From Pseudanabaena sp. BC1403 (GTDB lineage Bacteria > Cyanobacteriota > Cyanobacteriia > Pseudanabaenales > Pseudanabaenaceae), in NCBI RefSeq assembly GCF_002914585.1, contig NZ_PDDM01000001.1:62001-126000 (forward strand): a DNA stretch of 64,000 nt, given 5' to 3'. This document shows positions 41,107-45,948 of this stretch, piece by piece. Within the stretch, counting starts at the first letter, position 1. Each line of letters opens with the position of its first letter. The translations under genes and the position numbers were made by a program. A model generated the notes under the pieces. That model had not been told where the DNA came from. It ran no database searches and saw nothing but the letters and a program-made list of their open reading frames with translations.

Positions 41107-41370
41107 CTAAGCGCTCACAGCAACAATATCTCTACGAGAATTATTGCTGTGAGGTTGTTGGGCTAGAGGTGTGAAGCGGATAGAAATTGGCTTGGGTCGT
41201 GGCTCTGATGGTAATCCTGGAGCATAGGACTCTAGAACATGGCCACTACGAGTACACATTACTAATAGATAGTCACATGCTTCGCATTGGGTCTTGACTT
41301 GAGCGAGATATGAAAGGTGGTGACGTTCAGCGATCGCACCACAATTAGGGCAATGTATAGATTCAATCAT
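41107..41370 (-). CDS. small zinc-ribbon protein (annotated as PriA-like in some cyanobacteria)
   Basis: The 87-residue protein has four cysteines as CPNCG near residue 7 and CEACD near residue 33, a zinc ribbon, then a basic/proline tail (LPSEPRPKPISIRFTPLAQQ). Small proteins of this type are often labelled replication-restart PriA in cyanobacterial genomes, but it has no helicase domain; I treat it as unknown. Confidence 0.7.
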   Translation of the reverse strand: MIESIHCPNCGAIAERHHLSYLAQVKTQCEACDYLLVMCTRSGHVLESYAPGLPSEPRPKPISIRFTPLAQQPHSNNSRRDIVAVSA

Positions 41371-41990
41371 TTCTGTTAAGTCCTTAAATATATAAGTAAA
41401 TTTAAATAAGTATTGATGAAAAAAATTTGAGCCAACTGAATTTATGAGAGATTTTTAATGAACTTAGAACTGTTACATTATTTTTCTCGATTATTGAGGC
41501 TTTGTAATGGGTTCATCACAAGAAATGGCTAAATTTATTAGGATTTAAAAATTCGCTAGGTCTTGTCAGAAGTATTTCTAAAGGAATAGTTAGAAATTTT
41601 AAATGAGTTTTGAAACTTAGTTTCAGACAAGTATGTGCGAGATAAACTTATAACATCAATTTCAATCATGCATCGATTATAAGCATCAAAAATGGGGATC
41701 ATTGCCAGATAGGCGATCCCCGCCTTATAAATGGGGAGAACTAATTACTAGACCCTGCTTGGCAGTAGGAGAGTGATTGATGATTAAAAAATAGTTAAAG
41801 AATAATATTCAACATAAAAAGTCATATAAATCTTTACAAGAATTGCATTGCTGAGTGAATATAAATTTTTTAAGAAATCTCATTATTTTAAATATTTCTT
41901 TACAGTAGCCAATAATTTAGTCAACAATCAGCAATTTAAATCATGTAACCAATTTTCGGATCTGCAACGCTTACCTTACTGCCATCCTGT
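41371..41990. other. gene-free AT-rich region
   Basis: No supported gene in about 620 bp. A stem GGGGATC/GATCCCC with a 14-base loop lies at ~41694-41721, followed by CGCCTTATAAATGGGGAGAA. This could belong to an untranslated RNA, but no known RNA family was recognised. Confidence 0.4.
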
Positions 41991-42234
41991 AATACCAATC
42001 CACAAAAGTGTGACAACACTTCTGTGGATTAAAAAGTAAACCCTGTAAGGGTTTTACAGTAATTCTCATTATGAAACCGATTTTGGTGTTTCCAGCGCCG
42101 AAGGCGTTGGAAACACCAAAATCGGTTGTTGGAAAGCCCGCCAACGGCGGGCTTTCCAACAACCGATTTTTATAATGAGAATTGCTGAGGGTTTTAAAAA
42201 CACAGAGTGGCGTAGCCACTTTGTGTTTTGGTAT
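41991..42234. repeat. A-type element interrupted by a B-type element
   Basis: The left part AATACCAATCCACAAAAGTG with its hairpin and CCCTGTAAGGGTTTTA is joined, after a 131-bp insertion (42057-42187), to AGGGTTTTAAAAACACAGAG and GTGGCGTAGCCACTTTGTGT, ending TTTTGGTAT. AGGGTTTTA is present on both sides of the insertion. Confidence 0.85.
42057..42187. mobile_element. B-type palindromic element carrying two inner hairpins
   Basis: Bounded by CAGTAATTCTCATTAT and ATAATGAGAATTGCTG and flanked by a perfect 9-bp duplication AGGGTTTTA. Its interior has GAAACCGATTTT, a GGTGTTTCCA.../...TGGAAACACC hairpin, a TTGGAAAGCCCGCC/GGCGGGCTTTCCAA hairpin and AACCGATTTTT. Confidence 0.85.
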
Positions 42235-42271
42235 AAATGAAATAATTTTTATGCTGTCTTGCATTCACCAA

Positions 42272-43630
42272 TCAACGCATCGTCATGAATTCTTCGGCGG
42301 CAGTGGGATGCATTGCCATCGTGTTGTCAAGATCTTTTTTGCAACCGCCCATCGTTACAACTAGCGACATGCCTTGAATGATTTCTGCGGCATCTTTGCC
42401 CACCATTTGTAGACCCAAAACCCGTTCTTCTTCGCCGACTACGATTAGTTTCATCATCGTTTTTGCCTCTCCGCCAGCAAGGCTATAGAACATCGGGCGA
42501 AATTTGGTTTTATAAACTTTTACGCGATCGCCATACAGATCTCGTGCTTTTTCTTCAGATAGACCAACGGTAGCGGCTTCGGGCTGAGAGAATACTGCTG
42601 AGGGAATATTGGTATGACTGATGAATCTGGGCGTATGACCATAGACCGTATCAGCAAAGGCGCGACCTTCTGCGATCGCAACAGGTGTTAGATTCACCCG
42701 ATTGGTACAATCCCCGATCGCATAGATATGCGGTTGATTGGTGCAACTATCTTCTTTGACTGCGATCGCGCCATTAACAACTTCGATTCCTGCTTGTTCC
42801 AAACTTAGAGGCGCGAGATTTGGTTTTCGACCTGTTGCCGCTAAAACGGTATCAACGTTGATTTGCTGGGCGTTGCCATCACCATCATTAAAGGAAATTG
42901 TGAGATCGTTCTCATGCTTAGCAATCGTGAGGGATTCGCTGTCAACCCCAATATGAAAGTTAATTCCGTGGCTAACCATCCCTTCTTGGACATTGGTTCG
43001 CACATCGTTATCAAAGCCTTTTAAAATTGAATGATCGCGAATTATTTGCGTCACCTCAGCCCCTAGTCCGCGCATGATTCCTGCAAACTCAGTACCGATA
43101 TAACCACCCCCAATCACTGCAAAACGCTGTGGAAATTGCGGCAATAAAAACATTTCTTTGGAAGTAATGGCATATTCCATACCCGCTAAATTTGGCTTGG
43201 CGGCTTCACCTCCGACAGCGATCAGAATGCGTTCGGCAGTAAATTGGCGATCGCCTACCGCCACAGTATGCGCGTCAACAAATTTGGCAAATCCTGAAAT
43301 TAGCTCGACATTACTTTTCTCTAAAAAACTAATGTGCAGTTTATTTAAGCGCAATACTTCGGTTTGAATAGCATCGCGGAGTTTGCTCCAGTCAAGCTTG
43401 CCTGCGGGAATTTCCCAGCCATAACCTGCCGCCTCTTGAGGAAAATGCGAAAAATGTGATGCATAGACCATTAGCTTTTTGGGTACGCAGCCACGAATCA
43501 CACAAGTACCACCTACGAGGTCACCTTCTGCGATCGCAACTTTTGCGCCAAATGTGGCGGCACGTTTGGAGGCGGCAAGTCCGCCACTGCCCGCCCCAAT
43601 CACAAATAAATCGTAATCAAAACTTGTCAT
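42272..43630 (-). CDS. gor: glutathione-disulfide reductase
   Basis: Gor reduces glutathione disulfide with NADPH in the cytoplasm. The 452-residue flavoprotein has DLFVIGAGSGGLAASKRAAT, the redox disulfide GGTCVIRGCVPKKLMVYASH near residue 41, NAD(P)-binding FAVIGGGYIGTEFAGIMRGL near 170, and the C-terminal catalytic TMAMHPTAAEE. VPKK and the MHPT ending distinguish it from LpdA at 36639. The stop lies close to an A-type repeat end. Confidence 0.92.
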   Translation of the reverse strand: MTSFDYDLFVIGAGSGGLAASKRAATFGAKVAIAEGDLVGGTCVIRGCVPKKLMVYASHFSHFPQEAAGYGWEIPAGKLDWSKLRDAIQTEVLRLNKLHISFLEKSNVELISGFAKFVDAHTVAVGDRQFTAERILIAVGGEAAKPNLAGMEYAITSKEMFLLPQFPQRFAVIGGGYIGTEFAGIMRGLGAEVTQIIRDHSILKGFDNDVRTNVQEGMVSHGINFHIGVDSESLTIAKHENDLTISFNDGDGNAQQINVDTVLAATGRKPNLAPLSLEQAGIEVVNGAIAVKEDSCTNQPHIYAIGDCTNRVNLTPVAIAEGRAFADTVYGHTPRFISHTNIPSAVFSQPEAATVGLSEEKARDLYGDRVKVYKTKFRPMFYSLAGGEAKTMMKLIVVGEEERVLGLQMVGKDAAEIIQGMSLVVTMGGCKKDLDNTMAMHPTAAEEFMTMR

Positions 43631-43660
43631 ATTTTTTTATAGGCTTTTTTGTAAGTATAG

Positions 43661-43690
43661 ATCTCCCCCAGCCCCCGTTAAAAAGCTCCC
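43661..43690. repeat. decayed C-element core
   Basis: GATCTCCCCCAGCCCCCGTT then AAAAAGCTCCC resembles half of the GATCCCCC...TTAAAAAGGGG core of the C elements. Confidence 0.5.
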
Positions 43691-43714
43691 TTGTACTCTG
43701 CACTCATCGCAAAC

Positions 43715-43876
43715 GCCCTGCACTCAAGTGCGGGCTAAAAGCTAAAACCCGTTGAAACGGGTTGCAGCAATTCTCATTATAAAAATCGGTTTCATAATGA
43801 GAATTGCTGAACGGGTCGAATTTCTTCAGTCGGTTTCAACCGACTTTAGCTCTTAGCCCGCACTTGAGTGCAGGGC
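43715..43876. repeat. D-type palindromic element interrupted by a B-type element
   Basis: GCCCTGCACTCAAGTGCGGG CTAAAAGCTAAA at the left is mirrored by TTTAGCTCTTAGCCCGCACT TGAGTGCAGGGC at the right, with ACCCGTTGAAACGGGT and CGGTTTCAACCG inner hairpins. A 45-bp B element sits at 43765-43809. Confidence 0.8.
43765..43809. mobile_element. minimal 45-bp B-type element
   Basis: CAGCAATTCTCATTAT + AAAAATCGGTTTC + ATAATGAGAATTGCTG. It is flanked by AACGGGTTG and AACGGGTCG, an 8-of-9 direct repeat that fits a target duplication. The 13-bp centre is the reverse complement of the ends of the interior of the 42057 copy. Confidence 0.85.
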
Positions 43877-43884
43877 TACCCGCC

Positions 43885-45948
<2,064 letters not shown>

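Follow-up and report, generated by a model that had tools for sequence, protein, structure and literature searches.

A 131-bp MITE nested within another palindromic element in Pseudanabaena sp. BC1403, with hairpins that probably evolve by template switching

The window analyzed here, a 64,000-nucleotide stretch of the Pseudanabaena sp. BC1403 genome (contig NZ_PDDM01000001.1, positions 62,001 to 126,000 of the forward strand), carries a 131-bp palindromic element, designated B, inserted in another palindromic element, designated A. The explanation that we consider very likely as a whole is that B is the MITE of an IS and that its hairpins evolve by template switching. With regard to the first part, B is almost certainly a MITE, the non-coding passenger of an IS with the ends CAGCAATTCTCATTAT.

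The elements found at the locus are listed in Table 1. From left to right, B consists of an end, a module, hairpin H1, an inverted module, hairpin H2, a module, and an end. Pairing of the middle module is possible with the module on either side, and two folds of B therefore compete. Position and end sequences of B as given in the first-pass annotation held, and so did the exact 9-mer on both sides of B and the 45-bp B copy splitting a D-type repeat. The features of a MITE were present: 16-bp terminal inverted repeats, a target duplication of fixed length (9 bp), lengths of 131 and 45 bp without a transposase gene of its own, and, through a 1418-bp IS in congeners, an autonomous partner that matches B in its ends and in the length of its duplication. 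The sole open reading frame of at least 90 codons across B was a mechanical 97-codon frame spanning A and B.

Table 1. Positions, within the window, of the elements at the B locus and at the 45-bp copy
Feature	Position	Strand	Basis
B element, 131-bp MITE	42057..42187	+	sequence and comparison of copies
B left 16-bp terminal inverted repeat, CAGTAATTCTCATTAT	42057..42072	+	one base off the end of the congeners' 1418-bp IS
B module 1, AACCGATTTT	42075..42084	+	varies in concert with modules 2 and 3
Hairpin H1, 15-bp arms, 3-nt loop at 42100-42102	42085..42117	+	covariation, loop inversion
B module 2, reverse complement of modules 1 and 3	42118..42127	+	concerted variation
Hairpin H2, 15-bp arms, 3-nt loop at 42143-42145	42128..42160	+	covariation, loop inversion
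B module 3, direct repeat of module 1	42161..42170	+	sequence
B right 16-bp terminal inverted repeat, ATAATGAGAATTGCTG	42172..42187	+	sequence; end-pattern counts
Left 9-bp target duplication of B, AGGGTTTTA	42048..42056	.	sequence; control statistics
Right 9-bp target duplication of B, AGGGTTTTA	42188..42196	.	sequence
A-type palindromic MITE (putative), ends TACCAA/TTGGTA, split by B	41993..42233	.	sequence, A-like copies
Left TAA target duplication of A	41990..41992	.	sequence
Right TAA target duplication of A	42234..42236	.	sequence
D-type palindromic repeat split by the 45-bp B copy	43715..43876	.	common to G022; other sequence there in G026
45-bp minimal B copy, two ends and one module	43765..43809	-	sequence; same in G022
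Left duplication of the 45-bp copy, AACGGGTTG	43756..43764	.	sequence
Right duplication of the 45-bp copy, AACGGGTCG, 8/9 against left	43810..43818	.	sequence

After subtraction of B and one 9-mer, A was approximately 101 bp long. Among 23 A-like elements in the collected loci, 15 had an exact 3-bp duplication, which was TNA in 14 of the 15. Judged from these duplications, A itself looks like a MITE, which would make the window locus one MITE within another. The proposed nesting of B inside A was borne out by TAA on both sides of A and the 9-mer on both sides of B; an uninterrupted A copy (L046) holds AGGGTTTTA once. The opposite arrangement was seen at C12:124951 of the same genome, where A is inserted in a 45-bp B core. 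A and B were observed inserted into each other in both directions (window 41993-42233; L040 2052-2200; L274). At the window site, neither A nor B is present in the related genomes G022 and G026, but the difference extends beyond the two elements and takes in the whole A region, so that the site cannot serve as a clean empty one. G022 does have the 45-bp copy of position 43765, letter-for-letter identical together with its immediate flanks.

The BC1403 genome (G000) is a draft of 5.5 Mb in 88 contigs. With up to 2 mismatches, the 16-mer end was found there 99 + 111 times, versus 4 + 4 for a reversed control pattern, which is more often than by chance. At least 41 near-full-length B matches were obtained, a number that is a floor because only 40 of 154 first-look candidates were scored. 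The end pattern occurred in 24 of 38 genomes of the order, representing 2 of 8 genera. For comparison of copies, 156 distinct ones from 12 genomes were used, all exactly 131 bp long with flanks available (other lengths and truncated copies were dropped), with at most 5 mismatches in each end and agreement with the window copy at 85 or more of the 131 letters. Orthologues were counted separately in this set, and L270 is a copy from G022, not a duplicate.

Comparison of the flanks of the 156 copies showed a 9-bp duplication at 9/9 in 77 and at 8/9 in 28. The expectation that other copies would carry the 9-bp repeat thus held for 105 of the 156 and failed for the 51 that matched at 7/9 or less. 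Six copies had an exact 10-bp duplication. When the right flank was shifted by nine bases, no copy exceeded 6/9, and mismatched flank pairings gave 8-9/9 in 0.1% of cases. In the BC1403 genome, with 39 131-bp copies, 23 had a perfect 9-bp duplication and 5 had one at 8/9, so that the recurrence of the duplication noticed at the window locus was found again in 28 of 39 copies.

Empty orthologous sites were found at two places elsewhere in the genome, and they hold the 9-mer once, in agreement with the first-pass annotation. A copy at C15:120272 (TCATCTAGA / TTATCTAGA) is absent in G027, where TCATCTAGA is single; a 45-bp copy at C13:137268, with CTGTCAAAT twice, is absent in G022 and G027, where CTGTCAAAT is single. 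Insertions that relatives lack point to movement after the lineages separated. C15:116318, where the relatives carry other inserts, gave no clear reading. A separate locus (L069, C10:129632-129903) holds a tandem of two different B copies; CGTAACTTC precedes each of them and GTAACTTCA follows the second, as if the second B had inserted at the target of the first.

A 1418-bp IS with identical 16-bp ends and perfect 9-bp duplications (GAGATTTAT; ACCATCGAC) was present in congeners (L085 and L107) and encodes a 435-aa protein, a DDE-like transposase. Full elements, as defined by the ends, were held by 12 of the 30 loci matching this protein, and a perfect 9-bp duplication flanked 9 of these but not the other 3. 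At E 1e-10, 11 of the 38 genomes of the order contained a match, which in some was no more than a fragment. A whole-genome protein search at the same E value found no transposase of this IS family in the BC1403 draft, and the enzyme is therefore inferred from the congeners. The full IS with B termini that was to be looked for exists, with 9-bp duplications, in congeners and was not found in the draft genome of the strain itself. Of the claim of active transposition of a short non-coding palindrome, transposition with a recurrent 9-bp duplication is strongly supported, on the evidence of the copies, the two empty sites, and the IS of congeners, and the word active goes beyond the evidence for a draft genome in which the family transposase was not found.

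Unpaired ends in the BC1403 genome, at places chosen among 100 of 210, were inspected as candidate IS; they were judged to be truncated MITEs or unclear, and none showed an IS, with the reservation that the unpaired end at L082 leaves its contig after approximately 116 bp, too early for a judgement. No B-type ends within 3 mismatches were detected at the 8 PF01609 loci of this genome.

The IS protein did not reach the score of a curated transposase family in Pfam or NCBIfam. Pfam DDE_Tnp_1 matched with 17.7 and 13.6 bits (cut-off, 23); in NCBIfam, the L085 protein had no match, that of L107 matched IS701 with 15.5 against a cut-off of 170, and homologues reached at best 26 against 152 for IS4. 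A Gloeothece homologue is annotated as 'ISNCY family transposase'. Because the Pfam match is below the cut-off and the ISNCY label comes from the annotation of one homologue, no IS family was assigned.

Two plasmid copies in Calothrix encode a transposase approximately 50% identical, with ends CAGCAATTCTCATTTT and 9-bp duplications GAAATATAC and GTTATCTAT. In a wider scan, 80 loci were kept and 57 examined, considering only ends starting with CA or TAG. Inverted ends together with an 8-10-bp duplication were found at 21 of the 57, the duplication being 9 bp at 17; nine of the 21 came from one Arthrospira genome, two repeat the Pseudanabaena/Calothrix copies, and L478 has other ends. At the remaining 36 loci, no inverted ends with an exact duplication were found. 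IS copies with like ends and duplications also occurred in records titled as other bacterial phyla. Genome G032 contains ten full 1418-bp IS copies (L123 to L151), 8 of them with perfect 9-bp duplications, perhaps the result of a recent burst. MITE-like elements with these ends and with other, apparently less palindromic interiors occur in congeners and one other genus, at L091, L096, L110, and L113 (138-142 bp) and at L089, L105, and L108 (122-123 bp).

The 45-bp form was found at seven places in the BC1403 genome with up to 3 mismatches. The collected loci contained 156 copies of 131 bp versus 23 of 45 bp, in a set that was found mostly with the 131-bp probe and is biased toward that form. 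Eighteen loci had a 45-bp copy whose duplication was scored, with 7 at 9/9 and 5 at 8/9; the 12 include two orthologues of a single site. Subtracting one outer module and everything between the outer modules from the 131-bp form leaves exactly 45 bp. Moreover, G022 has a 131-bp copy where the BC1403 genome has the 45-bp core of C12:124951 (flanks 97.6 and 94.4% identical), and the two have uncommon end variants in common. This arithmetic and the one site suggest that the 45-bp form derives from the 131-bp form by deletion between the outer direct modules, although they do not prove the direction.

The first-pass annotation had read the two inner hairpins as a further insertion, giving up to three levels. 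This part was not borne out: the hairpins are the usual anatomy of the 131-bp form, and a third level is unsupported because 131 bp is the main form in the collected loci and the C12 core matches a 131-bp copy at one site. In such a scheme, a 76-bp element would have entered a 45-bp ancestor with a 10-bp AACCGATTTT duplication, and the module is indeed a 10-bp direct repeat flanking the extra sequence. An inverted third module in the middle does not fit, the 131-bp form is commoner (with the probe bias mentioned), and the C12 core carries the uncommon end variants of the G022 copy, which does not in itself fix the direction; we regard the scheme as highly unlikely. L259/L397 and L327/L398 were considered as further same-site pairs of the two forms and were not counted, as their flanks were partly similar and their immediate flanks different. 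Genome G009 has five near-identical 45-bp copies; four share flanks, as parts of one larger duplication, and one lies elsewhere, so that spread of the 45-bp form in this genome is only suggested.

Variant cells in the 156 copies were counted as two-sided or unpaired. H1 had 142 two-sided versus 81 unpaired variant cells and H2 had 107 versus 85; the module pairs had 61/42 and 59/45. The ends had 5 two-sided and 247 unpaired cells (5/252). Two-sided changes are therefore frequent in close arms and few in distant ends, as template switching predicts, with the reservation that the variant cells are not phylogenetically independent. A second count, on a subset of 44 rows that overlaps with these copies (43 distinct rows; 38 of the 44 from the BC1403 genome and 6 from others), gave 85 two-sided cells, none of them in the ends, against a mean of 11.7 after shuffling that does not keep relatedness. 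Of the first 103 copies, 77 carried three identical modules, and eight versions of these were represented. The ends of 45-bp copies lie 13 nt apart, and homogenization would be expected there if correction depended on the closeness of the arms alone. It was not clearly seen: 3 of 59 variant cells were two-sided (p = 0.18 versus the 131-bp form), in a search with up to 3 mismatches that is biased against two-sided changes. For this test, 37 of 41 places were used; three copies belonging to the G009 duplication were dropped, as was the orthologue, in G022, of the copy in the window.

The 3-nt loops of the 156 copies occurred in reverse-complement pairs, namely TTC/GAA 51/47, AAA/TTT 15/14, and TAA/TTA 9/5 in H1, and AAC/GTT 63/22 and TAC/GTA 14/12 in H2. 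In a column-shuffle of loop symmetry, the observed values fell inside the range given by shuffling or at its limit; this test is weak because the shuffle keeps the symmetry in base composition, and orthologues are the better test. Other palindromes in the collected loci often had 3-nt loops GAA/TTC or AAA/TTT with very different arms, and 33 hairpins ending in GGCGGCGC had 25 different arms.

Many compensated pairs and a very stable predicted fold (z = -18.4 as RNA, -16.9 as DNA) would also be expected if B were transcribed and its hairpins kept by selection on RNA structure for a function such as termination or stability. Such selection does not predict modules that vary in concert three ways, only two of which can pair at once. 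G.T and A.C mismatches were about equal (H1, 26/24; H2, 30/30), which random orientation to transcription would also bring about, and a scan of 41300-44500 gave no Rfam match at or above the gathering score. Rfam matches below that score were mostly to eukaryotic microRNA models and were taken as chance matches to a hairpin. What weighs most against RNA selection is the exact inversion of loops between orthologues, described below, which it does not predict; we consider it unlikely.

Fourteen pairs of copies at ten sites, with both flanks in common between genomes, were available as orthologous insertions; the pairs are not independent. In H1, 7 pairs had inverted loops, 4 had identical loops, and 3 had loops that differed in another way; for H2 the numbers were 4, 4, and 6. 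By site, inversion was found at 6 of 10 for H1, 4 of 10 for H2, and 7 of 10 for either, so that spacer inversion is present. The clearest pair, L206/L222, has flanks that are 99.7 and 98.3% identical, and within the 131 bp the two copies are the same except for two loops that are inverted and one compensated pair. Matching changes in all three modules were seen in L217/L339 and L221/L364. Two-sided and one-sided changes in the 14 pairs numbered 16/13 in H1, 6/23 in H2, 5/10 and 8/12 in the module pairs, and 1/26 in the ends. Because one-sided changes prevail outside H1, confidence in template switching is slightly lowered. In addition, near C13:137268 an unrelated hairpin (L284/L285) was exactly inverted between G022 and G027.

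Ectopic gene conversion, by which tracts of orthologous copies would be overwritten from other copies in the genome, has dozens of similar B copies per genome to draw on, and the loops and modules at the orthologous sites are present at other sites too. It leaves the origin of balanced inverted loops unexplained, however, and L206/L222 have kept one uncommon end variant (10/156 copies) and are identical outside the two loops and the one pair. The inversion of an unrelated palindrome between G022 and G027 also speaks against conversion, which we judge to be about as improbable as RNA selection. A palindrome-recognizing recombinase inverting the loops in phase-switch fashion would fit several loops being near 1:1 in orientation; arms that vary between copies and families, with no obvious fixed recombination site, make it extremely improbable.

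Template switching is the explanation that fits best: it is likely what corrects hairpin arms lying close together, leaves the distant ends uncorrected, and flips the loops. The sequence of events may have been as follows. The DDE-like transposase of the IS, acting in trans, would have placed B at AGGGTTTTA in an A-type MITE that was already there. During replication, the polymerase would switch template between the arms of the folded hairpin; through such a switch, a mutation in one arm would be copied to its partner arm, and the 3-nt loop would be inverted. Since a switch copies the arm and inverts the loop, palindromes could stay near perfect and loops could flip with no need for selection. 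Deletion between the outer direct modules would turn the 131-bp form into the 45-bp form. We are somewhat inclined to the view that the hairpins are kept near perfect by mutation and not by selection, with arms corrected and loops flipped fast, as several loops have orientations near 1:1 and inversions are found at approximately 1-2% flank difference.

The insertion of B is an ordinary kind of event, now linked to a specific IS. What makes it valuable is repetition: each genome has dozens of copies, each copy has two hairpins, and relatives have insertions in common, so that it becomes possible to measure in nature how fast palindromes are corrected and loops inverted. The case is also a warning that covariation alone cannot prove a structured RNA. 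If the hairpins are kept by mutation, strong covariation in bacterial palindromic repeats would be no evidence of RNA function, and such repeat families would be natural counters of template-switch events.

A literature search at the title and abstract level, with thin coverage of subscription papers, found no published account of the B family, which is not proof of novelty. REP, BOX, and ERIC are dispersed intergenic palindromic repeats, as is B; B is set apart from them, by description, in having transposon-type ends, target duplications, and a same-ended IS. The cyanobacterial MITE Nezha is also short and non-coding, with terminal inverted repeats, target duplications, many copies, and presumed mobilization in trans; it is approximately 134 bp long and makes 8-bp duplications. 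B differs in its 9-bp duplications and in a two-hairpin, three-module interior that varies in concert, a contrast drawn from description, not from sequence. Nezha is named in the reference list of PMC10969869. The B-type IS resembles ISNCY and IS4-like DDE transposases in the ISNCY label of the Gloeothece homologue and the weak DDE_Tnp_1 match, and differs in that its Pfam and NCBIfam matches lie under the curated cut-offs. Template switching at inverted repeats homogenizes the arms and inverts the spacer, according to PMC8604942, and maintains hairpins, according to PMC8794818. The cases described there and B have the same signatures, paired arm changes and an inverted spacer; those cases concern yeast coding genes and RNA genes, whereas B is a mobile bacterial repeat with many copies and orthologous insertions.
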